Positions 6,082-26,093 of a stretch of DNA of 64,000 nucleotides are shown here, piece after piece (position 1 is the stretch's first letter; each line of letters starts with the position of its first letter). The notes under the pieces are model-generated. The model did no database searches and was not told where the DNA came from. It worked only from the letters and a program-made list of their open reading frames with translations. Source of the DNA: Spirochaetales bacterium. GTDB taxonomy: Bacteria > Spirochaetota > Spirochaetia > SZUA-6 > DRHE01. The stretch spans positions 1 to 64,000 of the forward strand of contig JAUVWI010000013.1 of NCBI GenBank assembly GCA_030604195.1. Direction: 5' to 3'. Both the position numbers and the translations under genes were made by a program.

Positions 6082-8502
6082 ATGGATAACGAAAATCAAA
6101 AGCAGGACACCGAAACCAGCCAGGACTACATCCGGCTGATTTCTCATCAGCTTAGATCTCCGATAAACTCAATTGAGTCGCTGCTGCGCACCATTTCCGG
6201 GGGCTTTGCCGGTGAGATTAACGCCAAAGCTCTGCACCTCATAGAAAGGGCTGTGGGCCGGACCGGTGAAGCAAGAGAGATCATCTCCGACCTGCTGGAT
6301 TACCAGCTCTATTCCCGGGAAGAAGCCGCGGAACAGAAGGAATTCGACCTGGTGGTGCTGCTTAACTCACTCCTGGCTGTATACAGTGCTAAAGCCTTTG
6401 AAAAGAATGTTTCACTGCATATAGATCTACCGCTGAAAAACAGGATATTCATTTTAGGAGACAGCAGGGGTTTAGAGAATGCTATAACAAATATCATTGA
6501 GAATGCCATTAAATATACGCCTGATCACGGACGGATTTCGGTCGAACTGAATATATTACCTGCTGATAAAAAATGCAGCATCCAGGTAAAGGACAGCGGT
6601 TACGGTATTCCCGGGAGCGAGCTCCCCAAGATATTCAAGCCCTTTTACCGTTCTATTAAACATAAGGCGAATATTTATGGCACCGGATTGGGGCTGGCAA
6701 TTGCTCAAAAAATTATTTCTAATCATCACGGATCCATATCGGTGGATTCTGAGGAAAACAGGGGCGCCACTTTCACGATCACCCTTCCCTATTCCAGGCT
6801 GGCTCAAAGCGAGGACTCAAGAGTAAAGCGGAAAAAGGTGGTAATTATCGGAGGGGTCACTGCAGGCCCCAAAGCTGCCGCCCGCTTAAGAAGATTAGCT
6901 GAAGATATGGATATTACCATCATCGAAAAAAACGAGTTTCTCTCCTATTCCGCCTGCGGCCTGCCCCATTATATCAGCGGCCAGGTGCGTTCTCCCCAGG
7001 AGCTGATGTCAACGGCGGATAATAATATCCGTGATGTCCATTTTTTCGAAGCAATAAAGAATATTACTATTCTCAACAATACCGCTGCGGTTGGTATAGA
7101 TCGTAAGAAAAAGAGAGTCAAGATTAAGGATCTACTTAAAGAGACCTTCGCCTTTCTTCCCTACAATGTGCTGCTCCTGGCTACCGGCTCAGAATCAGTT
7201 ATTCCCCCCATACCCGGTATTAAACAGCCCAATATTTATTCACTACACAGCCTGGAAGATGCGAAAAAAATCAAGAAAGCCTTTGCCGCGGAAAAAGCCC
7301 AGGATGTATTTATAATCGGCGGCGGTTTGATCGGTGTTTCCACAGCCGAATCCCTGATCAACACCGGGGCGCGGGTAACGATACTGGAAAGAGAAGATTC
7401 CATCCTCTTAAACCTCATGGACCGGGATATTGCCGCAAAAATCCAGAATGAATTAAACCGCAAAGGGATCAAGATAATTACTAAAGTGAAGATAACCGGA
7501 ATAGAGAAAAACAGGAATAATCTCGCTATTCTAACTGATAGGGGAGCATATGCCGCGGATCTGGTAATCTTATCCGCCGGTGTAAAACCGAATACCCTTT
7601 TAGCTCAAAAAGCGGGATTGGAAATCGGTAAATCACAGGGCATAAAGGTAAACAAATATCTGCAGACCTCTGATAAGTCCATTTACGCAATCGGTGACTG
7701 TGCGGAGAGTATTAACCTGGTCACCGGAAAACATGAGTACTGGCCATTGGGATCTATTTCTACAAAAATGGGCAGAGTTGCCGCCGACAATATAGCCGGC
7801 ATTAAATCTGAGTTCAAAGGCTCCATTGGCACAGCCATGTTCAGGATAATAGATATCAATGCGGCCCGCACCGGGCTGACTTTAGAAACGGCGCAGCGAA
7901 ATGGCTTTGACGTTGAATCCGTGGTGGTCACCGGCATGGATAAAGCCCATTACTGCAAAGGCCAATACGTCATTATTAAAATCCTCGCCGACCGGAAAAC
8001 AAAGGTTATTCTCGGCGCGCAAGGGTACGGCAAAGGTGAAATTGTCCCCAGAATTGAGATTCTTGCCTGTGCCGTCACCCAGGGGTTGACTCTGGATGAA
8101 TGCTTTAAACTCGACTTAGGCTATGCCCCGGCTTTTAACAATCCAGTTGATATTGTCCAGACCGCCTGCCTGGTACTGATAAATAAAATCGATAAAATAA
8201 TTAAAACAATTACCATGGAGCGCTTTAAAGAGATAAAGGAACAGTTTAAAGGTATAGTTGCTCTTTGCCCACTTGCTGACTACACTTTCTATTCCATTCC
8301 GGGCAGTGTAAATATTCCACTGGAAAACCTCAGGATCGAGGGAATCCCCTTTGACAGGAATGATAAGGTGCTTCTATACAGCCGAACCTCTTCCGGCGCT
8401 TATACGGCTTTTAAATACCTGGAAACCAGGGGCTACACCAACATCTTTGTGCTGGAGGGCGGATACATCTACTGGGAAGGCACGAACCTCTCTTCACCAT
8501 AA
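6082..8502 (+). CDS. Fusion: histidine kinase - CoA-disulfide-reductase-like flavoprotein - degenerate rhodanese
   Basis: 806 residues from the chosen ATG. Residues about 15-240 form a complete cytoplasmic histidine kinase: H-box ISHQLRSP (His22), N-box ENAITNIIENAIKYT, DSGYGIPG and GTGLGLAIA. Residues about 250-690 form a flavoprotein of the CoA-disulfide reductase/NADH oxidase type, with FAD motif VVIIGGVTAGPKAAARL, active-site SYSACGLPHY (Cys292), NAD motif IIGGGLIGVSTAESL and YAIGDCAE. The last 90 residues resemble rhodanese (IPGSVNIPLENL, VLEGGYIYW), but the catalytic loop reads LLYSRTSSGA, with Ser where the sulfur-carrying Cys should be. There is no membrane segment. CoADR-rhodanese fusions are known; the kinase in front of one is not familiar to me. 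I infer a soluble sensor of thiol, persulfide or NADH redox state. No receiver gene is adjacent. Confidence 0.85.
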   Translation: MDNENQKQDTETSQDYIRLISHQLRSPINSIESLLRTISGGFAGEINAKALHLIERAVGRTGEAREIISDLLDYQLYSREEAAEQKEFDLVVLLNSLLAVYSAKAFEKNVSLHIDLPLKNRIFILGDSRGLENAITNIIENAIKYTPDHGRISVELNILPADKKCSIQVKDSGYGIPGSELPKIFKPFYRSIKHKANIYGTGLGLAIAQKIISNHHGSISVDSEENRGATFTITLPYSRLAQSEDSRVKRKKVVIIGGVTAGPKAAARLRRLAEDMDITIIEKNEFLSYSACGLPHYISGQVRSPQELMSTADNNIRDVHFFEAIKNITILNNTAAVGIDRKKKRVKIKDLLKETFAFLPYNVLLLATGSESVIPPIPGIKQPNIYSLHSLEDAKKIKKAFAAEKAQDVFIIGGGLIGVSTAESLINTGARVTILEREDSILLNLMDRDIAAKIQNELNRKGIKIITKVKITGIEKNRNNLAILTDRGAYAADLVILSAGVKPNTLLAQKAGLEIGKSQGIKVNKYLQTSDKSIYAIGDCAESINLVTGKHEYWPLGSISTKMGRVAADNIAGIKSEFKGSIGTAMFRIIDINAARTGLTLETAQRNGFDVESVVVTGMDKAHYCKGQYVIIKILADRKTKVILGAQGYGKGEIVPRIEILACAVTQGLTLDECFKLDLGYAPAFNNPVDIVQTACLVLINKIDKIIKTITMERFKEIKEQFKGIVALCPLADYTFYSIPGSVNIPLENLRIEGIPFDRNDKVLLYSRTSSGAYTAFKYLETRGYTNIFVLEGGYIYWEGTNLSSP

Positions 8503-8515
8503 TATTCCGCTATGA

Positions 8516-9415
8516 TTATCCCCTGCCGGCCACCACTGCCAGTCCAATAGAATTAAGCTTGGCTTCTGCAGAATCCGCCCGTGAAGTCAATACAACCGGC
8601 ACACTGGCGCCCACAATAATTCCGGCAGGCTCCGCTTTGCCAAAAAGAACTAAAGACTTATAGAGAATGTTGCCCGCCTCAATATCCGGAACAACCAGAA
8701 TATCAGCCCGCCCGGCCAGGGGGCTGGTTATACCCTTGTGCTGCGCCGCTTCCACTGATAGGGCATTATCCAGAGCCAGGGGGCCCTCTACCCTGCCGCC
8801 GGTTATAGAGCCCCTTTGGGCCATTTTAGCCAGGCAGGCTCCGTCCAGGGTCGCCGGCATAGCCGGGTTCACCACTTCTACGGCACAGAGTATAGCCGCA
8901 ATAGGCTCCTCAATACCCAGATGAGCAGCCAGATCAATGGCATTCTGAACAATATCCCGCTTCTGTTTCAGGTCCGGAGCAATATTGAGGCCGGCGTCAG
9001 TGACAAAGAGCAGGCGCTCAAAGTCGGAGTGCTCAAATATACCGACATGGGAGAGGGTTCTTCCCCGGTTCAAACCGTTTTCTTTGGCCAGCACCTCTTT
9101 GAGCAGCTCTCCCGTGGGTATCAGCCCCTTCATAAGCAGATCCGCTTCTCCATTCACCACCAGCCTGACCGTATCTCCGGCAACGCTCTTACGGCTCTCA
9201 GGAGCAATTACCGTGTAATGCTTAAGGTCGATGCCGGCTTTTTCAGCCTCCATTTCAATTTCCTCCGGGAAACCCACAAGGATAGCATCGATTATCCCTT
9301 CTCTGCGGGCATCTTCAACCGCAGCCAGCACCGTGGCATCGGCTGCCTGGGCAACGGCCAGGCGGCTCTTGTCCATACTCCTGGCATGCTTAAGTATTTC
9401 TCTGAAGCTTTTCAT
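8516..9415 (-). CDS. ptb: Phosphate butyryltransferase/phosphate acetyltransferase family enzyme
   Basis: 299 residues, the usual length for Ptb. Family signatures: LLMKGLIPTGELLKEVL, TLSHVGIFE, LFVTDAGLNIAPDL and DNALSVEAAQHKGI. The reaction is acyl-CoA + phosphate to acyl phosphate + CoA in the cytoplasm, normally followed by an acyl kinase to make ATP; no kinase gene is beside it here, so the acyl specificity (butyryl, isobutyryl or acetyl) is open. Start ATG with AAGGAG seven bases upstream. It converges with the fusion gene, 13 bases between the stops. Confidence 0.85.
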   Translation of the reverse strand: MKSFREILKHARSMDKSRLAVAQAADATVLAAVEDARREGIIDAILVGFPEEIEMEAEKAGIDLKHYTVIAPESRKSVAGDTVRLVVNGEADLLMKGLIPTGELLKEVLAKENGLNRGRTLSHVGIFEHSDFERLLFVTDAGLNIAPDLKQKRDIVQNAIDLAAHLGIEEPIAAILCAVEVVNPAMPATLDGACLAKMAQRGSITGGRVEGPLALDNALSVEAAQHKGITSPLAGRADILVVPDIEAGNILYKSLVLFGKAEPAGIIVGASVPVVLTSRADSAEAKLNSIGLAVVAGRG

Positions 9416-9505
9416 GACACTCTCCTTAAGAATGAAAATCGGGCAGTGGGCCAGGCAATTCTATCCTGTTACCTGAAGCAAAAATAACCGGACTTTTATT
9501 ATACT

Positions 9506-9907
9506 TCAAGGTTCTGAATAAGGAATAGTAGGCAGCCAGTCGGCTTTCAATAATACTCTATCAAGCGTTGCCAGTTCCAGCCCGTAAATAATTGCCGTAG
9601 CGGCCAGAAAACGATCGGCCGGATCCTGATGGAGAAGATCCAATTCTCTGCTCTTTATTGCAACCTCAATATTTATCGGGGCCTCTTTTAGGTTGCCCTT
9701 TTCCAAAGCTCTGCGCACCCAACTGACAGGATCGGGCTGAAGTTCAAGCCTGCCCTTTTCCGCCAGTACAATGGTCTCCCAAATAGAAATTGGTGAAATC
9801 CAGCTTTCATTATCTTCGTCATTCAAAATCTCTCTGAATCTTGACGGCAACGCTTCAGAACCGGATAAATTCCATATCCAGATATGTGTATCCAGAAGAA
9901 TTTTCAC
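9506..9907 (-). CDS. VapC-type PIN-domain toxin
   Basis: 133 residues from the GTG chosen at 9907. PIN acidic residues are visible: ILLDTHIW (first Asp), SIWETIVLAEKGRL (Glu), HQDPADRFLAATA (two Asp) and TLDRVL. VapC toxins are Mg-dependent ribonucleases, usually against tRNA or rRNA. The GTG overlaps the antitoxin stop (GTGA) and has GGGAGG ten bases upstream, better than the TTG at 9925. The pairing with a Phd-type antitoxin directly upstream makes this a type II toxin-antitoxin system. Confidence 0.85.
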   Translation of the reverse strand: MKILLDTHIWIWNLSGSEALPSRFREILNDEDNESWISPISIWETIVLAEKGRLELQPDPVSWVRRALEKGNLKEAPINIEVAIKSRELDLLHQDPADRFLAATAIIYGLELATLDRVLLKADWLPTIPYSEP

Positions 9908-10143
9908 TTTGCCAAAACCTCCCAATCTTCTTCCGGCAAAGGGCTGACAATATCCCCTGTAATCCTTATGCTTCCCTTCATCGAGCCAAAAGCAGACCTC
10001 TTCTTAGGGAGAGGCGGTGGTGGCGTTACTAATGCTATCGGAGAACCTTTTTTTGTGATCAAAAGTGGTTCCCCCGTATTCTTGACTCTTTCCAGCAATT
10101 TAAGGCAGGTAGCTTTAAACTTCGAGATAGCTATAGTTTCCAT
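9904..10143 (-). CDS. Phd/YefM-family antitoxin
   Basis: 79 residues. N-terminal METIAISKFKATCLKLLERV followed by TGEPLLITKKGSPIALV is the Phd/YefM DNA-binding pattern; the C-terminal part (DIVSPLPEEDWEVLAK) is the toxin-wrapping tail. It is expected to neutralise the PIN toxin encoded immediately downstream and to repress the shared promoter. A TATCTTAAG-rich stretch upstream (10144-10200) may hold promoter and operator, but I could not define them. Confidence 0.85.
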   Translation of the reverse strand: METIAISKFKATCLKLLERVKNTGEPLLITKKGSPIALVTPPPPLPKKRSAFGSMKGSIRITGDIVSPLPEEDWEVLAK

Positions 10144-12704: not shown

Positions 12705-15395
12705 TTAAAGTTTGCTTACCCTTGCGGCACAGGCTTTGTACTCCGGTATTTTAGCAACAGGATCATATACCGGATTAGTCAGTACATTAGCAGCTGCCTC
12801 ATGGAAATGGAATGGTATATAAATTGTCCCCTTGCCGATTTTATCCGTTACAAAAGCAGGTGTCTGTATTTCTCCCCTTCTACTGCTCACTTTTACTGTC
12901 TCGCCATTGCTGATACCAAGTTCTTCAGCATCTTTAACTGAAATCATTACCCTTGGACCGGCTAAATTATTAAGCCCTTCAGACTTACGTGTCATAGTTG
13001 CAGTATGAAACTGTTCCAGCAGTCGGCCTGTAGTAAGGACCATCGGATATTCCTTATCAGGAAGTTCTTTAGGTTCCTTAAAAGGTATTCCTTTCATAAG
13101 GCCCTTGCCCCGTGCAAATTTGCCTTTATGCAGGTAGGGAGTTCCGGGATGTTCAGGAGTGGGACATGGCCACTGTAAACCGGTAGTTCCAACCCGTTCC
13201 CAGCTAATGCCGCCATACTGGGGTGTAAGTGCACTGACTTCTTCAGCAATGTCATGTGCGCTGGAGTAATTCCAGTCACTTCCCATGGCATTGGCTATTT
13301 CCTGTAAAATAACCCAGTCTTCCTTTGCCTGCCCCGGAGGAGAAAACGCTTTACGCAGTAGTTGGGCGCGTCGTTCTGTATTGGTGTAGAGGCCGTCTTT
13401 CTCGGCATAGCAAGCTGCAGGCAATACAACATTGGCCATACGGGCTGTTTCGGTAAGGAAAATATCCTGTACAACCAGAAATCCAAGAGTATCAAGTTCT
13501 TTTTTAACCTGGTTGATATCCGGATCACTAAGCATGGGATTCTCGCCCATTACATAGAGGGCTTTTAAGCTGCCTTTTTCTATACCTTCAAGCATGTCAG
13601 GAATAGTCAGCCCGACTTCCCCGGAGAGCTTTCTGCCCCATGCCTTTTCAAACTTTGCTCTTGCATTTTCATCTATTACTTTCTGATAGCCAGGATAAAC
13701 ATTTGGAAGAGCACCCATATCACAGGCGCCCTGAACATTGGACTGTCCCCTCAATGGGTTAACCCCGCCGCCATTCTTGCCAAGGTTTCCGCAGAGCATC
13801 TGCAGGTTGGCTGTGGACCAGACATTGTCAGTTCCTGTGGTATGCTGGGTAATCCCCATAGCATAAAAAAGGGAAGCTGTTTCTGCTTTGCCAAAAAGCT
13901 CTGCTATCTCCCTGATCTTCTGAGCAGGGATACCGGAGATCTTCTCTACTTTCTCCGGGGTATAATCTTGTACTGTCGTTTTTAATTCTTCATAATTTTC
14001 ACAACGTTCTTCGATATACTCTTTATCCTGCCAGCCGTTTTTAATTATTTCGTTCATAATCCCGTTTAATACCGCTACATCCGTACCGCAGCGCTGCCGG
14101 GCATATATGGCGGAATATTTGACCATATCGATTTCTTTAGGGTCTATAACGATTAGCTTGCTTTTACCAAAACGAACCGCCTGTTTTATTCTTGAGGCAA
14201 TTACCGGATGAGCCGCAGATGTATCGGATCCGATAATTAAAATAACATCGGCTTCCTTAATACCTGCAATATCGTTTGTCATAGCGCCAGAACCAAATGA
14301 AGCGGCCAGACCGGCCACAGTAGCGCTGTGTCACAAACGGGCACAATGATCTACATTATTTGTGCCTACCTCCCTTCTTATGAATTTCTGAAAAGCAAAA
14401 TTTTCTTCATTAGTACATTTTGCTGAAGCCAACCCGGCAATTGAATCCGGGCCGTATTTCTCTTTTATTTCACTAAAGGTATTTGCCACCAGCTTGATGG
14501 CATCTTCCCAGGAAGCTTCTTTTAATTCACCATTCCCATTTCGGATTAGTGGAGTTGTCAGCCTTTCTTCGCTATTCACAAAATCGTAGCCATAGCGGCC
14601 CTTTACACAGAGCATGCCGTCGTTAGTGGGGCTCTCTTCCACCCCTGTTACTCTGACAATTTGATTGGTTTTTTCATTAATATGAAGGGTAAGCTGACAG
14701 CCTACTCCGCAGTAGGGACACACTGTATCGATTTTTTTCAGCTCCCATGGCCTCCCCTTGCCTATGGCATTTTTATCGAGAATAGCGCCGACAGGACAGA
14801 GCTGAACGCACTCGCCGCACTGCACACAACTTGAATCCCCCATAGGCAGATCGTCATCGCAGATCACTTTGGTCTCACGGCCTCTGTATCCGAAATCCAG
14901 CACCTCGTTTACTACTGTGCAGTTATCACCTTCAATACAACGTCCGCACTTAATGCACTTGCGGTGATCTACAACAATCATTTCACTGGAATTATCTATA
15001 CCGGGAGGTTCAGTTTCAACGATGAAGGAAGGAACTTCAATTCCAAGATAGTAAGCTGCATCCTGAAGCTCACAACTGCCGTTTGCTTCGCAGGTCAGGC
15101 AATTATGCTGGCCATCGGAAAGCAGAAGATTAATAACCATTCTCTGGGCATCCAGAACCACTTCGGAATCTGTAATTACCGCCATTCCATCCTGAGCCTG
15201 AACAGAACAGGATGTTTGCAATCCCCTCATACCTTCAACTTCAACAACACAGGCCCTGCAACGGGATGCAGGCCCTGTTTTCCTATGATAACAGAGAGAG
15301 GGTATATATATGCCCGCCTCCCTTGCTACCTCAAGAATGGTACGTCCCTCTTCAAAGGCAACTTCTTTACCATTTATCGTCATTTTTAAACTCAT
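12705..15395 (-). CDS. fdhA: Formate dehydrogenase catalytic subunit, selenoprotein (UGA-encoded Sec355)
   Basis: One gene of 896 residues, read through an in-frame TGA at 14333-14331. The residues around it are DHCARL-Sec-HSATVAGLA, the exact place where molybdenum FDHs carry Sec or Cys as Mo ligand. Domains: NuoG-like [2Fe-2S] (CYHRKTGPASRCRAC, about 35-49), His-Cys [4Fe-4S] (HNCLTCEANGSC), two ferredoxin clusters (CIKCGRC, CVQCGECVQLCPVG), the Mo-pterin [4Fe-4S] motif CPYCGVGC (about 229-236), then the molybdopterin domains to the dinucleotide-binding C-terminus (LTTGRLLEQFHT). Reaction: formate to CO2 in the cytoplasm, electrons leaving via the NuoEF-like subunit encoded 43 bases upstream. 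A bacterial SECIS hairpin follows the UGA, and selA, selB, selC and selD lie within 18 kb. Annotated naively this splits into two ORFs. Confidence 0.96.
14302..14333 (-). promoter_or_regulatory. SECIS element of fdhA, with the UGA selenocysteine codon
   Basis: On the minus strand the UGA (14333-14331) is followed by 12 bases and then a perfect 6-base-pair hairpin GUGGCC-GGUCU-GGCCGC (14318-14302). The loop GGUCU is the loop bound by SelB in the E. coli fdhF SECIS as I remember it, and the 18 bases between UGA and loop match that element too. It lies within the coding sequence, as bacterial SECIS elements do. Confidence 0.93.
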
Positions 15396-15438
15396 ATCTG
15401 CCTCTCCTTATTCTTAAAACTACTCATGAACAGACTCT

Positions 15439-17157
15439 TTATTTCCTTATGAGCGCTTCAAATTCCGCTCTGAATTTTTTTATCATCACGCCTACAGGTA
15501 TAGCAAAAGCATCACCGGTAGGACAGATTGTCAGTCCTGGAATGTTTCGGCACATTTCCTCTATTTTATTGATGTCTTTACTATTTCCTCTTTTATTGAG
15601 TATTTTCTTTAATAAACCCATAATTGCGTACGATCCGTCACGGCAGGGTGTACATTGACCGCAAGATTCGTGGGCGTAAAATTGAATTGTTCTGAGTGCC
15701 AGCTGAGGAATAGAAATACTATCGTTTATAACCATGATCCCGCCTGAACCAAGCATAGTTCCCGCCTTAACACAGTTATCAAAATCCATGCTTAAATCGG
15801 CAATCTCATCCGCTTTTAAAACAGGCACAGACAAGCCGCCTACAATAACCGCCTTCAGGGTTCCCTTCACACCTCCGGCAGCAGAGAGTATTTTCTCAAG
15901 AGCTGTTCCCATGGGGAATTCATAGACTCCGGGTTTATTAACATGCCCGCTTACACCGTATAGCTTTGGTCCGGAATTACCTACTGAGCCTATCTTTTTA
16001 AAGGCAGCCGCACCTTTTTCAACGATATAAGGAATACAGGCAAGAGTTTCCACATTATTAATAATAGTTGGACAGCCGTATAAACCTATATTAGCAGGAA
16101 AGGGGGGTTTGCTTCTTGGGTGTCCCCGTTTACCCTCTATAGATTCCATTAAAGCAGTTTCATCGCCGCACACATAGGATCCTGCGCCGGTGTGTAGGAT
16201 AATATCAACATGTTTTAAAAGGCCGGCCCTGTCAGCCTGATCAATCGCCTGCTTGAGTATTTCAGCAATCCAGCGAAACTCACCGCGGATATAGATAAAA
16301 GCCGTTTTTGCACCAATAGCATGAGCGGAAATAGCAATTCCCTCAATAAGCAGGTGGGGATCGTACTCCATAATCTGCCGGTCCTTAAAAGTGCCGGGTT
16401 CACCCTCATCAGCATTACAGATCAGGTAAACTGGACGTGGATCATCCTTGGGTAGAAAGCTCCACTTAAGACCGGTTGGAAATCCGGCGCCTCCACGACC
16501 GCGGAGCATGGAATCTTTGACTTCAGCAATAATTTGTTCCCCGGTTATAGCAAGGGCTTTTGTCAGCGCCTCATACCCCCCCCCAAGTTTATACTCTTCG
16601 ATCTCCCTGGCTTTAGGGTTCCCCCTGTTTTTAAGGAGTATACTGCATTCAGTTCCGTAATTGGCGTTTTTATCCGGCTGCGGCATTTCCCCTTGCTCTA
16701 AAGAAGCAATAAGTGCTTCTGTTTTTGCAATGGTCATATTCTCGTAATAAGTATCATTCACCTGAATTACAGGACAGGTTCCGCAAGAGGCTAAGTCCTC
16801 AACATGAGAAAGTGTAAACAAGCCGTCTTTAGTTGTTTCGCCCTCTCTAATATTAAGTATGTCTTTAAGATGCTCCATAATTTCCAATGAACCAGTAAGA
16901 ACACCTGGTATGTTTGTATCTACTTGAAGATGATACTTTCCCACAGGTTTCTTGTTGTACATAGTGTAATAGGTGGCAACACCAAAAGCCCTGCTTTTGC
17001 TGGTGTTCAGAAAAGAAGCAACGCTGTTTATAGCTTCATGCGTAAGATAGTTGTCATTTTCTCTCTGAACCATATCAAGGGCAGACATCATTACAGAATC
17101 TGTTTCAGGGTATTTTTTTGAAAGTTCCAGAATTCCGGATTCTGTTGCTTTTGTCAT
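15439..17157 (-). CDS. NuoE-NuoF fusion, NADH-binding subunit of the formate dehydrogenase
   Basis: 572 residues. Residues about 10-160 are NuoE-like (thioredoxin-fold [2Fe-2S] domain), but three of the four cluster cysteines are gone: the first pair reads VDTNIPG instead of CxxxxC, and the second reads EDLASC instead of CLGAC. The rest is NuoF/HydB-like: the GRGGAGFPTGLKW glycine-rich loop and CNADEGEPGTFKDR for NADH and FMN, SLBB domain, and the [4Fe-4S] motif SCGQCTPC near residue 480. It should move electrons from FdhA to NAD+ (or back). There is no C-terminal ferredoxin extension. GGAGGA sits six bases before the ATG. It is preceded by the focA terminator, so fdhA transcription may be partly separate. 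Confidence 0.9.
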   Translation of the reverse strand: MTKATESGILELSKKYPETDSVMMSALDMVQRENDNYLTHEAINSVASFLNTSKSRAFGVATYYTMYNKKPVGKYHLQVDTNIPGVLTGSLEIMEHLKDILNIREGETTKDGLFTLSHVEDLASCGTCPVIQVNDTYYENMTIAKTEALIASLEQGEMPQPDKNANYGTECSILLKNRGNPKAREIEEYKLGGGYEALTKALAITGEQIIAEVKDSMLRGRGGAGFPTGLKWSFLPKDDPRPVYLICNADEGEPGTFKDRQIMEYDPHLLIEGIAISAHAIGAKTAFIYIRGEFRWIAEILKQAIDQADRAGLLKHVDIILHTGAGSYVCGDETALMESIEGKRGHPRSKPPFPANIGLYGCPTIINNVETLACIPYIVEKGAAAFKKIGSVGNSGPKLYGVSGHVNKPGVYEFPMGTALEKILSAAGGVKGTLKAVIVGGLSVPVLKADEIADLSMDFDNCVKAGTMLGSGGIMVINDSISIPQLALRTIQFYAHESCGQCTPCRDGSYAIMGLLKKILNKRGNSKDINKIEEMCRNIPGLTICPTGDAFAIPVGVMIKKFRAEFEALIRK

Positions 17158-17211
17158 TACAGTTCCTCCATTGATAGATACGATACCTTCACATTTTTAT
17201 TAAAAGAAAGC

Positions 17212-17237
17212 TATAACCCCGGCATAGCGGGGTTATA
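17212..17237 (-). terminator. Hairpin terminator after focA
   Basis: TATAACCCCG (17212-17221) and CGGGGTTATA (17228-17237) form a perfect 10-base-pair stem with a 6-base loop just after the focA stop on the minus strand. The sequence after it on that strand is CTTTCTTTTAAT, T-rich but broken, so read-through into the NuoE-NuoF gene is possible. Confidence 0.65.
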
Positions 17238-17255
17238 ACCTTGATTGGTAATCTT

Positions 17256-18128
17256 TTAGCTTTCTTTTTTCTGGCTCGGACTTTGTCGCACAAAAATCGC
17301 CCAGTAGAGAACGCCAACAAATATTGCGCCGCCTACTATGTTGCCAAGGGTTACTGTAATAATATTCTGCGAAAAGAAAGTGCCCCAATTCAAATTGGCA
17401 AGGGCGTCTGCGGATATTCCTGATGCAGCAACCGCATCGGGAAACTGCTTTGCAATAATACCGGCAGGAATAAAATACATGTTTGCTATAACATGCTCAA
17501 AACCTGATGTTACAAAAGCCATAATCGGGAAAAATATCGCCAACACTTTTCCAGCGATATCCTGTGATGCAATTGCCATCATTACTGTTATACAGACTAG
17601 AAAGTTACAACCGATTGCCCTGAAAAAATATGCCACATTATGGTTTATTCCGCCGGGAACCGCAGCAACTTTACCGTAAGCTATGCTTATTGCTGTTCCG
17701 CCGACATTACCTGCGAGAAGTCCCGAGCCCCATGCAATTATGAGCGCAAGAATAATTGACCCAACCAGGTTTGCAAGGTAAACGGTTATCCAGTTTCGGA
17801 GCATCCTGCCGAAAGAGATCTTTTTATCACAGAGCGCAACAGTCATCAGGTTGTTGCCTGTAAAAAGCTCTGATCCGGGGATAATAACCATCATCAGTCC
17901 AACAGAAAAAACAGCGCCGATAAAGAACTTTTTTAGTCCAAACAGAGCAGCTTCTCCGCCAATGGTCCAGCCTGTACCCACCATTGTTGCAAGGTGGGCT
18001 GCAAGTCCGATAAAAACGCCTGCAAGTAAGCCCAGACCGATCATCTTCCCGATAGAAAGGGAAGCCTTCTTTTCACCGACGCCTATAAGGGCCTTAGACA
18101 GATCTGCCGGTGCCAAAAAATTCGCCAT
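17256..18128 (-). CDS. focA: FocA-type formate channel
   Basis: 290 residues with six hydrophobic segments, as in the pentameric formate/nitrite transporter family. Recognisable pieces: an N-terminal LAPADLSKAL amphipathic helix, GSELFTGNNLMT and the ITVYLANLVGS helix, NFLVCITVMMA, and SGFEHVIANMYFIPAG. It moves formate (with or without a proton) across the inner membrane. Its place between the receivers and the formate dehydrogenase genes fits uptake of formate or export of formate made by CO2 reduction. GGAGG precedes the ATG. Two short hairpins lie in the 110-base leader (18147-18195); their role is unclear. Confidence 0.93.
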   Translation of the reverse strand: MANFLAPADLSKALIGVGEKKASLSIGKMIGLGLLAGVFIGLAAHLATMVGTGWTIGGEAALFGLKKFFIGAVFSVGLMMVIIPGSELFTGNNLMTVALCDKKISFGRMLRNWITVYLANLVGSIILALIIAWGSGLLAGNVGGTAISIAYGKVAAVPGGINHNVAYFFRAIGCNFLVCITVMMAIASQDIAGKVLAIFFPIMAFVTSGFEHVIANMYFIPAGIIAKQFPDAVAASGISADALANLNWGTFFSQNIITVTLGNIVGGAIFVGVLYWAIFVRQSPSQKKES

Positions 18129-18239
18129 TAAATACCTCCATGGTGTACTGCATTTAAGCAGTGTTTAATATTTTTGGTCCTTAACCGTAAGGACTCTAAT
18201 ATATTACAAATGATTATTCAATACTAAATTGATAATAAA

Positions 18240-18620
18240 CTAAATGCTTTCTTTAAGTTTGTTTAACAGTAAGCCGGGTTCTACAGGTTTCTCCAGTGCT
18301 GCTTTTATATTCGGCCACTTCTCCCCGGGCGCATAACTTGAAAGAAGCTGATCAGCCCTGCGTATGCCTGTTAACAGTATCACAGGAATTCCCGCTGTAT
18401 CAACATTATCCCGCAGTTTTTTTGCAATATCCAGGCCTGCGCCTGAATCTTCAATCATAACATCAAGCAGAATACCATCGGGTTTTTCCGTTTTTGCTTT
18501 TTCAAATCCTTCTGAACCGCTGGCCGTGGTAATAACTTCATAACCCTCCGATTCCAGAATTGTGGTTGTTGAAATTCTAAAATCGGGATCATCGTCTACT
18601 ATTAAAATTCTTTTTGCCAT
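18240..18620 (-). CDS. Stand-alone response-regulator receiver 1
   Basis: 126 residues, a CheY-like receiver with no output domain. Acidic pocket ILIVDDDPDF, phospho-acceptor Asp in DGILLDVMIED, the conserved Thr in VILLTGI and Lys in ALEKPVEP. First of three tandem receiver genes counted from the focA side; it is the most divergent of them (DVMIEDSGAG instead of DVMM..DTEGF). The likely partner is the Cache-type kinase encoded in the same operon. With no DNA-binding domain the output must be protein contact or phosphorelay. Confidence 0.9.
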   Translation of the reverse strand: MAKRILIVDDDPDFRISTTTILESEGYEVITTASGSEGFEKAKTEKPDGILLDVMIEDSGAGLDIAKKLRDNVDTAGIPVILLTGIRRADQLLSSYAPGEKWPNIKAALEKPVEPGLLLNKLKESI

Positions 18621-18645
18621 TTCCCTCTCCTTCTATAATTATTTT

Positions 18646-19038
18646 CTATCCTATTTTACTTCGAATAGCCTTTAAAAGATCATCAGGCGCTACCGGTTTC
18701 TCCATAATTTCATCTACCGGAAGCCAGCTTTTATCCGGTTCAAATTTAAAGGGCAGGTTCATCTCTTTTGTTATCCCTGTTACCATTATTATTTTCGTAT
18801 TTTTTAATTCAGGATTTTTATCCACCTCTCTGCTAACCTCAAATCCCTCGGTATCATGTGCCATCATTACATCCAGGATTATAAGGTCCGGATGTTCACC
18901 TTTTGCTATATCCAACCCCTCTGAGCCGTTGTACGCGTAAATAACACTATAGCCTTCACTTGTTAAAAGATCTCTAACACTCTGTACAAAATACTTATCG
19001 TCATCAATAATAAGAATCCTTTTATTTTCGTTTTTCAT
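18646..19038 (-). CDS. Stand-alone response-regulator receiver 2
   Basis: 130 residues, CheY-like and without an output domain. Acidic pocket IIDDDKYF, phospho-acceptor Asp in LIILDVMMAHDTEGF, Thr in IIMVTGIT, Lys in IMEKPVAP. It shares with receiver 3 the unusual DTEGF after the Asp site and a SWLPVDEIMEKP segment, so the two are recent paralogues. It starts 25 bases after the stop of receiver 3, in one operon. Confidence 0.9.
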   Translation of the reverse strand: MKNENKRILIIDDDKYFVQSVRDLLTSEGYSVIYAYNGSEGLDIAKGEHPDLIILDVMMAHDTEGFEVSREVDKNPELKNTKIIMVTGITKEMNLPFKFEPDKSWLPVDEIMEKPVAPDDLLKAIRSKIG

Positions 19039-19062
19039 CTTTCTTTCCTCTTTAATAAGCTT

Positions 19063-19458
19063 TTATTTACTTAAAATATTATCCACTTCTTCAATCAACT
19101 TTGCAGGGTCAATTGGTTTTTCCATAATCCGGTCAACCGGCAGCCAGTCTCCATCCGCCTTTAATTTAATTTTTAATTTCATTACACTTGTAATCCCGCT
19201 GACCAGTAATATTTTAATATTGTCACTTAAGGCAGGTTCTTCCCTTATCTTCCGCGCAAAATCAAAGCCTTCGGTATCGTAGGTCATCATTACATCCAGT
19301 ATAATCAGGTCCGGATGTACATTCTTTGCAATTTTGAAGCCACTCTCGCCATTATAAGCATAATGTACCACATATCCATAGGCTTCTAATAGATCCTTAT
19401 TGGATTCTATAAAAGATTTGTCATCATCAACAAGAAGGATTGTTTTGGGCGTATCCAT
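19063..19458 (-). CDS. Stand-alone response-regulator receiver 3
   Basis: 131 residues, CheY-like and without an output domain. Acidic pocket LLVDDDKSF, phospho-acceptor Asp in LIILDVMMTYDTEGF, Ser in LLVSGIT, Lys in IMEKPIDP. Closest to receiver 2. It begins three bases after the stop of the NuoE gene, so expression of receivers and bifurcation subunits is coupled. Confidence 0.9.
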   Translation of the reverse strand: MDTPKTILLVDDDKSFIESNKDLLEAYGYVVHYAYNGESGFKIAKNVHPDLIILDVMMTYDTEGFDFARKIREEPALSDNIKILLVSGITSVMKLKIKLKADGDWLPVDRIMEKPIDPAKLIEEVDNILSK

Positions 19459-19461
19459 GTT

Positions 19462-19974
19462 TTATTCCTCTTTCTTTTCTTTTCCGGCTCGTAGTTGATG
19501 AAGAATTTTTCGCACCTTTTTAGTGGTTAAAAGATTATAAATTTTACCATTAATCATCATAACCGGAGCCTGGGCACATGCTCCTAAACAGCGTACAGTC
19601 AATAGGGTAAACATCATATCTTCTGTTGTTTCCCCTTCCTCTATACCCAGTTCCTCTATAATTGCAGTTAATATGTTCTCTCCGCCCTTTACATAACAGG
19701 CAGTACCGTGACAAACTGATATTACGTATTCTCCCCTGGGCTTAAGGCTGAAGTAGTTATAAAAGGAAGCTACTCCCCAAACCCGGGACTTAGAAATATC
19801 CATAAGCTCTGCAACTTTAGCAAGGACATCTTTCCTTAAGTAACGATAAGATTCCTGAACTTTATGTAGAACTTCTATAAGAAAAGAATCTGTATATTCT
19901 TTTGTTTTTGTATTATCTATAAACGTTTTTATTTTGTCCATCTTCTGTTTTTCTTCACACATAGGAACCTCCAA
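19462..19974 (-). CDS. NuoE-like [2Fe-2S] subunit, intact cluster
   Basis: 170 residues. All four [2Fe-2S] ligands are present: CHGTAC and, 37 residues later, CLGAC, followed by AQAPVMMINGKIYN. The N-terminal helical part (YRYLRKDVLAKVAELMDISKSRVWGVASFYNYF) is standard for NuoE/HydC. It forms the small subunit of the flavin complex whose large subunit is the NuoF-GltD fusion encoded 21 bases upstream. Contrast with the degenerate NuoE part fused to the other NuoF in this cluster. Confidence 0.92.
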   Translation of the reverse strand: MEVPMCEEKQKMDKIKTFIDNTKTKEYTDSFLIEVLHKVQESYRYLRKDVLAKVAELMDISKSRVWGVASFYNYFSLKPRGEYVISVCHGTACYVKGGENILTAIIEELGIEEGETTEDMMFTLLTVRCLGACAQAPVMMINGKIYNLLTTKKVRKILHQLRAGKEKKEE

Positions 19975-19995
19975 TATTTCAAGTCTATATTTTTA

Positions 19996-22900
19996 TTAAT
20001 TAACAATTGCCTTTGTAAACTCAAGATCACATCGCAAACACTTTTCGGCTTCACAAATTGCTTCTTCTTCAGAAATGGTTCGCTCTACTTCAATGTCACC
20101 TTTGCGATTCTCTGCCGGGAGTTTATATGTTCTGCATCTTTCAACACCTTCTGTTTCTTCTTCATCCTCAACCGGTAATTGAGGTATATAATATTCAGGC
20201 AGGTTCACTGTCGGTTCAACCTTTAGATTTTTTCCTTTTAAGTAATTTTCGATTATTATTGCTGCTTTTTTCCCTGCGGCTATAGCCTCAACAACGGTAT
20301 TGGGCCCTGTAACTGCATCACCGCCGGCAAACACACCTGCACGGCTGGTAGCAAAAGTATCGGAATCTACCATTACGGTTCCCTGCTTTGTTGCAGCTAT
20401 ATGGTCTCCGTCAAAATTATCCATATCAGGTTTTTCACTTATAGCTACTATCAGCGTATCAATTGTTTCTATATACTCTGAATTTTCTATTGGTAATGGT
20501 CTGCGCCTTCCTGAATCATCCACTTTTCCCAATTCATTCTTCTGGAATTCAATTCCTTTAATATGGCCGTTTGTACTAATTATCCTTTTCGGAGCAATTA
20601 ATGTTTTCAGTATTATTCCTTCCTCAAGAGCCTCTTCTATCTCCTCATTTATGGCAGGCATCTCTTCGCGGGAACGTCTATAAAAAACGGTAACGCTTTC
20701 GACCCCTTCCTGTCTTATAGATATTCGGGCTGCATCCATAGCTGAATTACCACCCCCAATTATGCCGACATGGCCTTTAGATAATTTTTCCCCTTTTAGA
20801 TTGTATGCTTTAAGGAAATTCATGGAATTAAAAACGCCCTCTTTTTCCTCTCCTTCGATTCCAAGTGATAAACTCTTATGGGCGCCTATTGCAATAAAAA
20901 CCGCTTCAAACCCCTGGTTGAGTAATCCGTCAACCGTTATATCTCGTCCAAGTCTTGTATTTCCTTTAAAAGCTACATTTTCGTCAATTAATGCTTGAAT
21001 GTCCCTGTCAAGGATATCTCTTGGCAGCCTGTATGCCGGTATTCCTGAACGAAGCAAACCACCGGCTTTCTCTTCCTGCTCAAAAACCGTTACCGGATAT
21101 CCTTGCAAAGAGAGCATATGCGCAGCGCTTAAACCAGCAGGACCGGCGCCAATTACAGCAACTTTTTTAACTGCCTTCCCTTCAAGTTTCACACGTTCGG
21201 GTTTATAAATTGAAGGATCAATGTTATCAGTAACAAATCTTTTGAGTGTTCTGATTGCTACGGCTTCACCACCGCTTCTACCTGCTCTACAGCTCCTTTC
21301 ACAAGGATGATTACATACACGAGCACAAATAGAAGGAAAAGGATTGGGCGTTCTGATGGCAATATAGGCCTGGTCATATTCTTTTCTCTGCAGATGAGCA
21401 ATATAACGCCACGCTTCCGTACCAAGCGGGCAGGCAGCCTGACAGGGAGCTCCTGTAAGTTCCTTACATACACCTGCTGAACACTTTTTATCCCGAATAT
21501 GTTCTATAAATTCCTCACGGAAGTATCTCAGTGTTGCAATAACCGGATTTGGCGCTGATTGACCCAAACCGCAGAGAGCCGTACTTTTTATTGTATTGGC
21601 AAGGTTTTCCAATGTATCAAGATCTTCCATCTTTCCCCTGCCTTCAGTTATGCGGCTCAGGATATCATGCATTCCTGCTATTCCCTCCCGGCAGGGTGTA
21701 CACTTGCCGCATGATTCCTCTTTTGTAAATTCAAGAAAGTATTTTGCCAGATTTATCATACATGTGTTTTCATCAACAACAATCAGCCCGCCTGATCCCA
21801 TTATTGATCCTGCTTCGGCAAGAGATTCGTAATCGATTTCTACATCCAGGCATTGAACCGGTAAACAGCCTCCGGAAGGTCCCCCTGTTTGAGCAGCTTT
21901 ATACTTTTTACCATTAGGAATACCACCGCCGATATCATAGACTATTTCTCTTAAAGTCGTTCCCATTGGAACCTCTATCAGCCCGGAATTTCTTACATTA
22001 CCCGCTAATGCAAAAACTTTTGTGCCCTTGCTTTTTTCCGTGCCAATGGATTTAAACCATTTTGCCCCATCAAGAATTACAACCGGGATATTTGCTAATG
22101 TTTCTACATTGTTAATTATTGTTGGATATTTAAAAAGACCTTCCTTTGCCGGGAAAGGTGGTTTTGGTGTAGGAATTCCACGGTAACCCTCTATAGAATG
22201 AATTAAAGCAGTCTCTTCACCACAAACAAAAGCGCCGGCGCCAAGGCGTATTTCAATATCAAAAGAAAAATTAGAACCGAAAATATTGTTTCCTAAAAAC
22301 CCTTCCTCCCTTGCAGCTGCTATAGCTATTTTCAACATTCTAACAGCTAAAGGGTACTCTGCCCGTATATAAACAATACCTTTATTTGCTCCTATTGCAT
22401 AACCGGCTATTGCCATTCCTTCCAGAACAGTATGTGGATCACCCTCTATTGTATTTCCATCCATAAATGCACCAGGGTCGCCTTCATCTGCGTTGCATAT
22501 AATATATTTAATATCACTCTTTTCTTTATCTGCAAATTCCCATTTCAAACCGGTAGAAAACCCAGCCCCGCCTCTGCCGCGAAGACCGGAAGCTTTTACT
22601 TCTGCTATGACTTCTTCCGGGGACATTTCCGTTAGTACTTTGGCTAAGGCTTCGTAGCCTCTCAAAGCAAGGTAATCGTCTATACTTTCAGGATTAGTAA
22701 TTCCGCAGTTCCTTAATACAACCCTCATCTGCTTGCCAAAAAAATTAACATCGCCAAAAATTCTATAGGATTTGTTAAATAGATTATTCGGCTTAATAGC
22801 TAATCTGCCAACAGGTCGATCCTGTAATATATGTTCTTCCACAATCTCCTTAATATCAACTGGCTTCACATTGCCATAAATTACATATCCGGGGTTAACA

Positions 22901-23082
22901 ATAACCAGAGGCCCATATTCCTGCATGCCCAGACATCCGGAAATAGTTATTTTCACTCTTTCTGAAAGATCATGAATACCAATCAGTTCCTCAAGGATTT
23001 TCTCATTTTCTTTAGCGCCATTTTTTATACAATCCGGGCACTGGCATAATGTTATTACGTAGTCCTTGCTATCTTTCGCCAT
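19996..23082 (-). CDS. NuoF-GltD fusion, probable Stn-type electron-bifurcating transhydrogenase subunit
   Basis: 1028 residues from the ATG at 23082, which has GGAG eight bases upstream; an ORF start at 23115 would overlap the previous gene. Order: thioredoxin-like [2Fe-2S] domain (CQCPDC, GCLGMQ; 1-95), NuoF core (GRGGAGFSTGLKWEF, CNADEGDPGAF, ESCGKCTPCREG), a [4Fe-4S] GltD N-terminal domain (CQAACPLG, CARVCNHPCERSCRAG), a GltD/NfnB-like FAD-NADPH domain (VAVIGAGPAGLSAAHML, VGIIGGGNSAMDAAR, GVFAGGDAVTG) and a short Cys tail (CLRC). Known Stn and HydBC-type complexes couple NADH, NADPH and ferredoxin by flavin-based bifurcation; here two of their subunits appear fused. That function is inferred from architecture. 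Confidence 0.88.
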   Translation of the reverse strand: MAKDSKDYVITLCQCPDCIKNGAKENEKILEELIGIHDLSERVKITISGCLGMQEYGPLVIVNPGYVIYGNVKPVDIKEIVEEHILQDRPVGRLAIKPNNLFNKSYRIFGDVNFFGKQMRVVLRNCGITNPESIDDYLALRGYEALAKVLTEMSPEEVIAEVKASGLRGRGGAGFSTGLKWEFADKEKSDIKYIICNADEGDPGAFMDGNTIEGDPHTVLEGMAIAGYAIGANKGIVYIRAEYPLAVRMLKIAIAAAREEGFLGNNIFGSNFSFDIEIRLGAGAFVCGEETALIHSIEGYRGIPTPKPPFPAKEGLFKYPTIINNVETLANIPVVILDGAKWFKSIGTEKSKGTKVFALAGNVRNSGLIEVPMGTTLREIVYDIGGGIPNGKKYKAAQTGGPSGGCLPVQCLDVEIDYESLAEAGSIMGSGGLIVVDENTCMINLAKYFLEFTKEESCGKCTPCREGIAGMHDILSRITEGRGKMEDLDTLENLANTIKSTALCGLGQSAPNPVIATLRYFREEFIEHIRDKKCSAGVCKELTGAPCQAACPLGTEAWRYIAHLQRKEYDQAYIAIRTPNPFPSICARVCNHPCERSCRAGRSGGEAVAIRTLKRFVTDNIDPSIYKPERVKLEGKAVKKVAVIGAGPAGLSAAHMLSLQGYPVTVFEQEEKAGGLLRSGIPAYRLPRDILDRDIQALIDENVAFKGNTRLGRDITVDGLLNQGFEAVFIAIGAHKSLSLGIEGEEKEGVFNSMNFLKAYNLKGEKLSKGHVGIIGGGNSAMDAARISIRQEGVESVTVFYRRSREEMPAINEEIEEALEEGIILKTLIAPKRIISTNGHIKGIEFQKNELGKVDDSGRRRPLPIENSEYIETIDTLIVAISEKPDMDNFDGDHIAATKQGTVMVDSDTFATSRAGVFAGGDAVTGPNTVVEAIAAGKKAAIIIENYLKGKNLKVEPTVNLPEYYIPQLPVEDEEETEGVERCRTYKLPAENRKGDIEVERTISEEEAICEAEKCLRCDLEFTKAIVN

Positions 23083-23099
23083 TATATATCTCCATTCCT

Positions 23100-23456
23100 T
23101 TACTGAATTTGCCAATCTTTAATAACTTCACCTTTCTTTAAATGCCGTTCAATAATTCCACGGGCTCTGTCGGGAGTAACCTTCTGATATTTAATAGGGA
23201 TCTTGCCAGGCATAATAACCTCAACCAGTGGATCAAGACTGCACCGTCCGGGACAACCTTTCGGACTTAAATAGACATCTTTAAGACTGCCATCCTCAAT
23301 AGCAAATTTAAAAACATCATAAACTTCCTGTGCACCCGCCGCCAGACCTCCGGTTGACATGCAGATATATATCCTGGTTTTCAAATAACCTTTTTCAACT
23401 ATATCGTGGACAGCCTGTGTTCTACGCTTCTTTATTAATTCCAATGGTGTGCTCAT
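23100..23456 (-). CDS. Thioredoxin-like [2Fe-2S] ferredoxin-type protein
   Basis: 118 residues. Fold and motif resemble the 2Fe-2S thioredoxin-like ferredoxins seen before NuoF subunits: RIYICMSTGGLAAGAQEVYDVF, then GCPGRCSLDPLVEVIMPG. Only three cysteines are visible (32, 68, 72), one fewer than a full cluster needs, so a cluster is uncertain. It overlaps the kinase gene start side by 4 bases (ATGA) and ends 17 bases before the fusion gene. Probably an electron-transfer or regulatory piece of the same complex. Confidence 0.75.
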   Translation of the reverse strand: MSTPLELIKKRRTQAVHDIVEKGYLKTRIYICMSTGGLAAGAQEVYDVFKFAIEDGSLKDVYLSPKGCPGRCSLDPLVEVIMPGKIPIKYQKVTPDRARGIIERHLKKGEVIKDWQIQ

Positions 23457-25441
23457 TCTTCTTCTCCTTTAACTGTCTTTTCTTTTTTTTCCGCTATTTT
23501 ATATACCGGCAGTGTAAAAACAAAATCAATCCATTCATTATGAGTAGATTTTACCGTTATTTTACCACCGTGGGCTTCTATAATTTTTTTAGTAATAAAC
23601 AATCCTAACCCGGTTCCTCTTCTCTTTCTTGCTTCTTTTTCATTCTCCAGCCTGGAAAATTTCTTAAATAGATTATCTATCTGTTCAGGCGCTACACCTT
23701 CACCTTCATTGAACACACTAAAACGAATGAAGTCCTTTTCTACAATCGCCCCAAGTTTAATTGTTCCACCATCCCTGCCATACTTAACCGCATTACTTAT
23801 TAAATTCTCAAAAACCTCTCTGGTCATATTCAAGTCTGTTTTAAGAATAGTATCAGCCGGGATGTTATTAATTATCTTAATGTTACGTTCATCCGTGGAA
23901 GCTTGAAATGAATCAATAAGCTGATCTAAAACCTCTTCATTAAGCAGGACCCTTGAAACCACCGGTTCAAGTTCATTGTTTTCGATCCTGGAAAGATTAA
24001 GATAATGCCTGACCATTTCCACAAGCAGCCTGACATTATCATCAATATTCTTTATTCCCCTTTCCTGTTTTTCAGTAAGAGGCCCGAATTTCTTTTCCTG
24101 TATCAGGTATACATAATTCATAATGGTGGCCAACGGGCTCTTTAGCTCATGTGAAATAAACCCTACTGTTTCCATATAACTGCGGTTAACAACTGTAAGC
24201 GATTCATTTAATACCCCTAATTTCTCATTGGCATTTTTAAGGCTGTTTTCCCGTTCACTCAGGGAGGAAACCATTTCATTAAAAGCCTCCATAAGAAGAG
24301 CGGTTTCCCTGGTTGATCTTTTACAAAAAACAGGTTCCGGCATTTCCCCCTTGCGCATTTTCCTGGCAGCTTGAGCCAGACTATGCAGGGGTTTTGCTAT
24401 GCGTCCTGCCAAAAAGAAGGCAAACAGCAAAGATAGAACAAAGCCGATAAGGGAAAGATAAACATACCGTAAAATTGTACTTCTTATCAGGTCAATAAAT
24501 GGTTTTTCAAGAAGACCGACATAGAGCATTCCGATTACCTGTTGCTGACTGTTAAGTACCGGCTCATATGCCGTCAGGTACCAGTCGTTAACAACAAATG
24601 CCCGCTCCTGCCAGATGCGGACATTATCAAGCACTGTATCTGCAACCTCTTTCGAAACCCTTGTGCCGATAGCCCTGTTGCCGTTGTTGAGTCTTACAGT
24701 TGTGGCAATTCGGGTATCATTGAGAAATATTGTAACCGTGCCTGTACTCCTTTCGTTATATTGCTCATTCTTGAAAAGCATGTCTTTGATTCTATCTACA
24801 ATTTCCTCATTTCTATTAACAAGCACACCTCCATAAAGGGCGCCCAGTACCTGATTCCCGCTCCTTACCGGCACAGCGCCAAGCATTACCAGGCCCCTGG
24901 TTTCTGCGATTTTTGCTGTGGGCCGCGAACGCGGTGTATCCTCAAGAACCGTATAAGCCTTTTCAGACAAACCTTCACCCTCATTTTCAAGTTCCTTGAC
25001 TGACAGGAGCTCATAGCTGGTTACACTTTCTCCTTTAAGAGCCTTTTGAACAGGGTTGCTGGCTATTCTATAATCACCTGTTTTATAAGGAGCGGCAGAG
25101 CGTATAACAACTTCAGATTTTGGTGAAACCAGGGTTAAGAAATCAAATCCGCTATTAATTCGTATTAGTTCAAGCCTGTTCTGTATTTCCCGCTCTGACC
25201 AATCTTGTTCAAAACATGAATCCACAATTAATTGTTTGTCGGAAACCAGTTCGAGTACCGTTTCTATCCTGTTCAGCTCTGAATCTAGAATACCCCAGGC
25301 GCTGTTTAAATTGAGCTTGACACTGGTTTGAGCTTCTTTAACAACCTGCTCTTTGATAACACCAACACTGATAAAAGCAGAGAGTCCTCCGAAGATTAAT
25401 ACCATCAGAGCAAAACCGGCAAACAATTTGTTTCTAATCAT
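23453..25441 (-). CDS. Cache-domain sensor histidine kinase
   Basis: 662 residues. Membrane segment 1 at about 7-28, an extracytoplasmic Cache-like sensor region (about 30-310), membrane segment 2 (about 321-343), HAMP (to about 395), then HisKA (VGFISHELKSPLATIM) and HATPase (TREVFENLISNAVKYG, GTGLGLFITKK). It sits between rex and the electron-transfer genes, overlapping rex by 8 bases and the ferredoxin-like gene by 4, so it is part of the operon. The ligand may be formate or another small carboxylate, as is common for Cache domains, but this is a guess. The three stand-alone receivers downstream are the obvious phosphorylation targets. Confidence 0.9.
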   Translation of the reverse strand: MIRNKLFAGFALMVLIFGGLSAFISVGVIKEQVVKEAQTSVKLNLNSAWGILDSELNRIETVLELVSDKQLIVDSCFEQDWSEREIQNRLELIRINSGFDFLTLVSPKSEVVIRSAAPYKTGDYRIASNPVQKALKGESVTSYELLSVKELENEGEGLSEKAYTVLEDTPRSRPTAKIAETRGLVMLGAVPVRSGNQVLGALYGGVLVNRNEEIVDRIKDMLFKNEQYNERSTGTVTIFLNDTRIATTVRLNNGNRAIGTRVSKEVADTVLDNVRIWQERAFVVNDWYLTAYEPVLNSQQQVIGMLYVGLLEKPFIDLIRSTILRYVYLSLIGFVLSLLFAFFLAGRIAKPLHSLAQAARKMRKGEMPEPVFCKRSTRETALLMEAFNEMVSSLSERENSLKNANEKLGVLNESLTVVNRSYMETVGFISHELKSPLATIMNYVYLIQEKKFGPLTEKQERGIKNIDDNVRLLVEMVRHYLNLSRIENNELEPVVSRVLLNEEVLDQLIDSFQASTDERNIKIINNIPADTILKTDLNMTREVFENLISNAVKYGRDGGTIKLGAIVEKDFIRFSVFNEGEGVAPEQIDNLFKKFSRLENEKEARKRRGTGLGLFITKKIIEAHGGKITVKSTHNEWIDFVFTLPVYKIAEKKEKTVKGEEE

Positions 25442-26093
25442 TTACTGCCTTTTTATCCATTTTATTAACAAAATAAGCTAAATTCCCAAGTTCCAATTCA
25501 AGATTGACATTATTAACAATGCAATGTTCCGGTAACCTGAGCTGAATCTGGCTAAAATTTAATATTCCCTTTATACCGCCTAGAATCATCAAATCGGCTG
25601 CGCGTTGGGCAGCTTCATCGGGAAGTGTTAAAATGCCCGTTTTTATCTTATTTTCCTGTACATAGCTTATTAATTGTTCAATCGGTAAAACAGGAACAGG
25701 AGCATCTTTGTCAAGCTTATCAGGATTATTATCAAAAGCGGCACATATCTTGATATGTTCTTCTTCAAAACCCTTATAATGAAGCAGTGCGGTTCCCAGC
25801 TTTCCGGCCCCGGCAATAACAACTTTCAGGATTTTATCCTTACCTAAAATTGAATCCAGCTTCTCAATAATTTCATCAATGTTGTAGCCGCCCTTTTTAT
25901 TTCCTGATATCCCGTATAAGGAGAAATCTTTTCTCACAAGAGCGGAAGATGCCCCAATGGAATCTGCAAGGTTGTCAGAGAAAACTTTTACCAGGCCTAA
26001 ACTTTTTAGCCGTTTAAGGGTGATTTTGTATTTCAGTAATCTCATCACAGAATTATCAGATTCCGTTACTTTAATCTTGCTCTTTGCCATCAC
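25434..26093 (-). CDS. rex: Redox-sensing transcriptional repressor Rex
   Basis: 219 residues. N-terminal winged helix (RLLKYKITLKRL, DSIGASSALVRKDFSLYG, as in Rex) and a Rossmann NAD(H)-binding domain (VVIAGAGKLGTALLHY). Rex senses the NADH/NAD+ ratio and leaves DNA when NADH rises. It is the first gene of a minus-strand operon for formate and NAD(P)H metabolism and is divergent from the selenocysteine genes, so it probably controls both. Starts GTG 26093 and ATG 26090 are adjacent; the promoter -10 box ends only 7-10 bases before them. Confidence 0.93.
   Translation of the reverse strand: MMAKSKIKVTESDNSVMRLLKYKITLKRLKSLGLVKVFSDNLADSIGASSALVRKDFSLYGISGNKKGGYNIDEIIEKLDSILGKDKILKVVIAGAGKLGTALLHYKGFEEEHIKICAAFDNNPDKLDKDAPVPVLPIEQLISYVQENKIKTGILTLPDEAAQRAADLMILGGIKGILNFSQIQLRLPEHCIVNNVNLELELGNLAYFVNKMDKKAVND

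Follow-up and report, generated by a model that had tools for sequence, protein, structure and literature searches.

A histidine kinase fused to an NADH-dependent reductase-like flavoprotein in Spirochaetota, a candidate one-piece redox sensor

The window, a stretch of 64,000 nucleotides from a Spirochaetales bacterium, contains a single forward-strand open reading frame (6082..8502, ATG at 6082 to TAA at 8502) that codes for an 806-residue protein in which a histidine kinase core is followed by a flavoprotein of the CoA-disulfide reductase (CoADR)/NADH-dependent persulfide reductase (NPSR) type and a rhodanese-like domain. An alternative in-frame start, TTG, lies 27 bp 5' of this ATG, and the closest homologue (L042, 91% identical) starts at the equivalent ATG. 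The Pfam domains are arranged in series on the forward strand, bearing out the first-pass annotation, which had placed a kinase and a flavoprotein in one frame: a HisKA/DHp domain (residues 18-74; 6133..6303), HATPase_c (residues 126-237; 6457..6792; E 1.2e-28), a 13-aa linker (residues 238-250; 6793..6831), the flavoprotein (residues 251-695; 6832..8166), comprising Pyr_redox_2 (residues 251-548; E 2.6e-63) and the dimerisation domain Pyr_redox_dim (residues 590-686; E 3.6e-14), and the rhodanese-like domain, which lacks the active-site cysteine (residues 733-799; 8278..8478; E 1.4e-8). The HisKA match (E 7e-5) scores 23.2 bits against a Pfam cut-off of 26.9, and this region forms a two-helix hairpin of long helices (4-39 and 48-78) in an AlphaFold2 model of the fusion protein built from a 24-sequence alignment. 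The model has a mean pLDDT of 87, with the helix hairpin, the ATPase fold and the flavoprotein-rhodanese half all well predicted, and a pTM of 0.67, the relative placement of the two halves not being confidently predicted; together with the weak linker, in which residues 244-248 fall below a pLDDT of 50, this means that the model does not fix how the halves are arranged.

The kinase half is closest in the PDB to VicK/WalK/PhoR-type kinases, and the claim that all of its boxes are intact holds: His22, the predicted phospho-acceptor (SHQLRSP; 6145-6147, +), and Pro27 at His +5 are both invariant across 13 homologues, and N137/N141 (N box), D171-G173-G175 (G1), F185/F188 (F) and the G200-TGLGL box (G2) are invariant or nearly so. 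HisKA H-boxes usually carry an acidic residue directly after the phospho-acceptor histidine; here that residue is Gln, rather than Glu or Asp, in the window protein and most homologues, and Glu in L015, L017 and L040. No domain N-terminal to HisKA was found by Pfam or by inspection of the reading frame, so input should come from the flavoprotein or from a partner, with the flavoprotein as the sole candidate within the chain.

The best PDB match of residues 252-798 is the Archaeoglobus fulgidus NPSR (6pfz, E 1.6e-108), and Foldseek with the C-terminal half of the model recovers NPSR/CoADR-RHD structures at TM scores of 0.90-0.96 on the target, with 6pfz as the closest (TM 0.95). The flavoprotein motifs include FAD GGVTAG, NAD GGGLIG, Glu436 and GDC at 538-540; the FAD and NAD glycines, Glu436 and Cys292 are invariant among 13 aligned members. 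Glu436 is located where the second strand of the NAD domain ends, which by Rossmann-fold rules suggests NADH rather than NADPH as the cofactor. The name CoA-disulfide reductase, used in the first-pass annotation, does not carry over, since the protein reaches 378 bits against the TIGR03385 equivalog, well below the curated cut-off of 579. The same annotation described a complete oxidoreductase with the active site SYSACGLPHY. The motif is present, and its Cys292 (6955..6957, +), the flavin-proximal redox cysteine, aligns with catalytic Cys42 of A. fulgidus NPSR; completeness fails at the C terminus, where the position of the rhodanese sulfur-accepting cysteine (Cys519 in A. fulgidus) is occupied by Ser767 (8380..8382, +). 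In the NPSR relay, C519 accepts the sulfane sulfur first and bound CoA passes it to C42 (PMC7969121).

These two cysteines have had different histories. Cys292 is present in every homologue examined, with no case of loss. The rhodanese position is Ser in all 17 aligned members of the window's clade; in a second fusion clade it is Cys in four members (L049, L138, L141, L142), Ser in two (L139, L140) and Asp in one (L143). A 45-row tree implies three losses of the rhodanese cysteine, all of them within kinase fusions, and its retention in every kinase-less row as well as in an Acidobacteria fusion (L052). A general rule that it is lost only in kinase fusions was rejected, because two more distant kinase-less homologues outside that tree (L027, L028) also have Ser. 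The window's genome additionally codes for a stand-alone 570-aa CoADR-rhodanese homologue (L002; G000:C133:13994-15670) that keeps both cysteines, and this second gene probably still supplies the ordinary enzyme activity. We interpret the pattern as the conversion of an enzyme into a sensor, in which the sulfur relay has apparently been abandoned and the redox centre kept.

The searches yielded about 26 such fusion genes in about 24 genomes, the window's included (25 further ones); among 395 genomes sampled from the class, 12 carry full-length fusions at 49-91% identity. The hosts are Spirochaetota, two Fibrobacteres metagenome-assembled genomes (MAGs; L046, L050) and one Acidobacteria MAG (L052), which has a more distant form. 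The closest gene, L042, is from the nearest relative, Spirochaetales bacterium HyVt-362 (G001), and the second clade, which comes from further families within the phylum (L138-L143, G456), is distinguished by a longer N-terminal helix and the H-box SAHQMKSPL. The kinase, flavoprotein and rhodanese parts are all under purifying selection, with dN/dS of about 0.16, 0.13 and 0.19, respectively, between the window gene and L042. In the flavoprotein tree the two fusion clades are recovered at 100/100 each and group together at 84/58; in the kinase tree, support is 100/100 for the second clade and 95/91 for the core clade, next to which the Acidobacteria kinase falls. Forcing all of the fusions into one clade gives an AU p of 0.29, which neither rejects nor shows a single origin. 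The trees are compatible with one fusion followed by cysteine loss and with two or three separate fusions. No relative was confirmed in viral contigs, and no plasmid record covers 80% of the query, the listed matches being confined to the flavoprotein part.

Several members lie in or next to gene sets of energy metabolism. In L053, the fusion sits in a same-strand run with Rnf-Nqr, 2Fe-2S thioredoxin-like (NuoE), Complex1_51K (NuoF), Fer2 and polyprenyl synthetase genes. Behind the fusion in L047 comes an Rnf set, and NuoF-like and 2Fe-2S genes (Fer2 matches) precede it in L124 and L125. Mrp antiporter/membrane-hydrogenase genes flank the fusion in L043, L049, L152 and L157, the last two by likeness of their translations to L049. 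Bioenergetic neighbours are absent at L045, L121 and L154, and in the contexts examined the fusion showed no recurrent sulfur-metabolism neighbours.

Receivers adjoin the fusion in 6 of about 19 contexts examined, three of the six being from one family. In L158 and L159 the fusion is followed on its own strand by a stand-alone receiver gene, which overlaps it by 10 bases in L158 and starts after a 16-base gap in L159 (5167-5529), and the convergent neighbour in L012, L015, L017 and L050 is a receiver of a different subfamily. The window gene has no adjoining receiver, and candidate partners were sought by homology: a search of the window's genome (G000) with the L012 receiver gives 76 receiver matches, and three of the best four lie at 18.2-19.5 kb of the window. 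These are three single-domain receivers on the reverse strand (18240..18620, 18646..19038 and 19063..19458), homologous to the fusion-adjacent receivers of other genomes, and the genome's best match to the L012 receiver is the second of them; all three are putative partners. They sit among formate-dehydrogenase, NuoE/NuoF-like and formate-channel-like genes, and behind them are a membrane kinase (23453-25441, -) and a Rex-like regulator (25434-26093, -), all of these names being read from translations.

We propose, with a probability of about 0.6, that the fusion protein is a soluble, dimeric redox-sensing kinase that uses the flavoprotein as a C-terminal input and signals to a receiver-only protein. 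The input domain would be a former NADH-dependent persulfide/CoA-disulfide reductase, placed behind the kinase core rather than before it. NADH would reduce FAD and Cys292, whose disulfide partner is probably bound CoA, and the resulting redox state, or a domain movement in the flavoprotein dimer, could shift the kinase/phosphatase balance of the DHp-HATPase core via the short linker. Kinase DHp domains are homodimeric. NPSR-type enzymes are homodimers as well (PMC7969121), and since each half belongs to a dimeric family, changes in the dimer formed by the flavoprotein could be transmitted to the DHp bundle. Phosphate would then move to a stand-alone receiver of the adjacent or homologous type, which may adjust hydrogen, NADH or ferredoxin metabolism. 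The kinase activity, the signal, the direction of information flow, the partner in the window's organism and the target genes are all what we infer from sequence, and the signal itself may be NADH/NAD+, CoA-thiol or persulfide.

The first-pass annotation had proposed that the redox enzyme reports the thiol or persulfide state directly to the kinase. Conservation, selection, adjacent receivers and genomic context make a redox sensor plausible. The persulfide part is weakened, because the sulfur-accepting rhodanese cysteine of NPSR is Ser in the whole clade; a persulfide relay via the rhodanese is disfavoured by Ser767 in the window's clade, and the state of NADH/flavin or of the CoA thiol is no less likely than persulfide to be the signal.

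Retention of the FAD, NADH and Cys292 motifs would also fit a flavoprotein that still works as an NADH-dependent disulfide/persulfide reductase, for which the kinase part serves as regulator or tether, with phosphorylation or ATP setting enzyme activity, or with the enzyme merely recruited to a signalling complex. Better conservation of the flavoprotein half than of the kinase half (61% versus 48% identity between the window protein and L053) fits this reading too, as does a Tyr at each of two positions in most core members, positions that we take to correspond to Tyr361 and Tyr419 of the Staphylococcus aureus enzyme. However, the clade-wide loss of the rhodanese cysteine, with both cysteines kept in the L002 paralogue, weighs against a working reductase, and the receivers beside the gene argue for phosphotransfer output, so that we consider it unlikely. 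More doubtful is a persulfide or polysulfide sensor in which sulfane sulfur bypasses the rhodanese to reach the bound CoA and Cys292 and, on being reduced, switches the kinase. CoADR enzymes without a rhodanese can use per- and polysulfides (PMC6026696), and four second-clade members do keep the rhodanese cysteine; but the first sulfur acceptor of NPSR is that very cysteine (PMC7969121), whose replacement in 17 of 17 core members is accompanied by two further losses in the second clade, and the absence of recurring sulfur-metabolism genes beside the fusion also speaks against such a sensor. Although the window is from a fragmented assembly (145 contigs), an assembly chimera, a sequencing error joining two neighbouring genes, or a chance fusion in one lineage can be dismissed, as the same junction recurs across these genes and genomes, which were assembled separately and whose fusion proteins are 32-91% identical to that of the window, and the fusion is under purifying selection.

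The preferred reading, that of a redox-sensing kinase with a C-terminal flavoprotein input, can be set against known systems. The fusion shares its C-terminal 555 residues with A. fulgidus NPSR (6pfz), Bacillus anthracis CoADR-RHD (3icr) and Shewanella loihica Npsr (3ntd), and has in common with NPSR/CoADR-RHD enzymes the FAD/NADH domains, the catalytic Cys, the dimerisation domain and the C-terminal rhodanese fold; unlike them, it is headed by a histidine kinase core, has Ser for the rhodanese Cys and falls below the CoADR equivalog cut-off. It resembles HisKA sensor kinases with cytosolic redox input in its DHp/HATPase core and, as proposed here on general principle, in redox-responsive control (for a redox-sensing kinase, see PMC6456745), but whereas those kinases have an N-terminal PAS/GAF or reactive-Cys domain, the input here would be a C-terminal pyridine-nucleotide disulfide oxidoreductase. 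The regulatory hydrogenase HoxBC with its kinase HoxJ is an example of an energy-metabolism enzyme acting as a kinase sensor (PMC6978683), as proposed for the fusion; HoxBC and HoxJ are separate proteins and HoxBC is a different enzyme, whereas the fusion is covalent and flavin/thiol-based. The principle is therefore already known, both from enzymes as kinase inputs and from redox kinases. As to the architecture, which the first-pass annotation suggested was new, no description of a kinase with CoADR, rhodanese or Pyr_redox_2 was found in a literature search that was not exhaustive and took in few subscription papers.

At about even odds, these genes represent a widespread and previously undescribed group of one-piece redox kinases, in which a reductase turned sensor would relay the NADH/CoA-thiol state to receivers controlling Rnf, hydrogenase and formate-dehydrogenase metabolism. 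In anaerobes that possess Rnf along with bifurcating hydrogenases and formate dehydrogenases, NADH and thiol sensing is known mainly via transcription factors such as Rex. With a soluble protein that unites a well-understood flavoenzyme with a kinase core, one could test directly how flavin or thiol state is coupled to phosphorylation, and the Cys-to-Ser change may preserve a natural trace of the passage from enzyme to sensor.

Several other features of these loci are of note. The window receivers belong to a large reverse-strand redox cluster (12705-26093) with formate-dehydrogenase, NuoE/F-like and formate-channel-like genes, the membrane histidine kinase and the Rex-like regulator, and the second and third of the three consecutive receivers share 51% identity. 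In a recurring module, the gene after that for a membrane histidine kinase codes for a single-domain receiver bearing the signature W-M-P-V...KP (L047:8406-10690, L131, L130, L133 and L135), and in L047 the module comes directly after the Rnf genes and the fusion. One second-clade copy, L049/L137 (G456:C70), has no H-box in the open frame, which starts at SPLSTII; G456 holds a further copy, this one full-length, on C32, and the C70 copy may have arisen by decay of a duplicate or by misassembly. In several families, a polyprenyl synthetase gene lies immediately upstream of the fusion (L053 at 9006-9944, L013, L039, L047 and L040), with a similar protein upstream in L014, and a gene for a cyclic-nucleotide-binding-domain protein occupies this position in L012 (958-1458, by Pfam) and L015 (3936-4448, a homologue).
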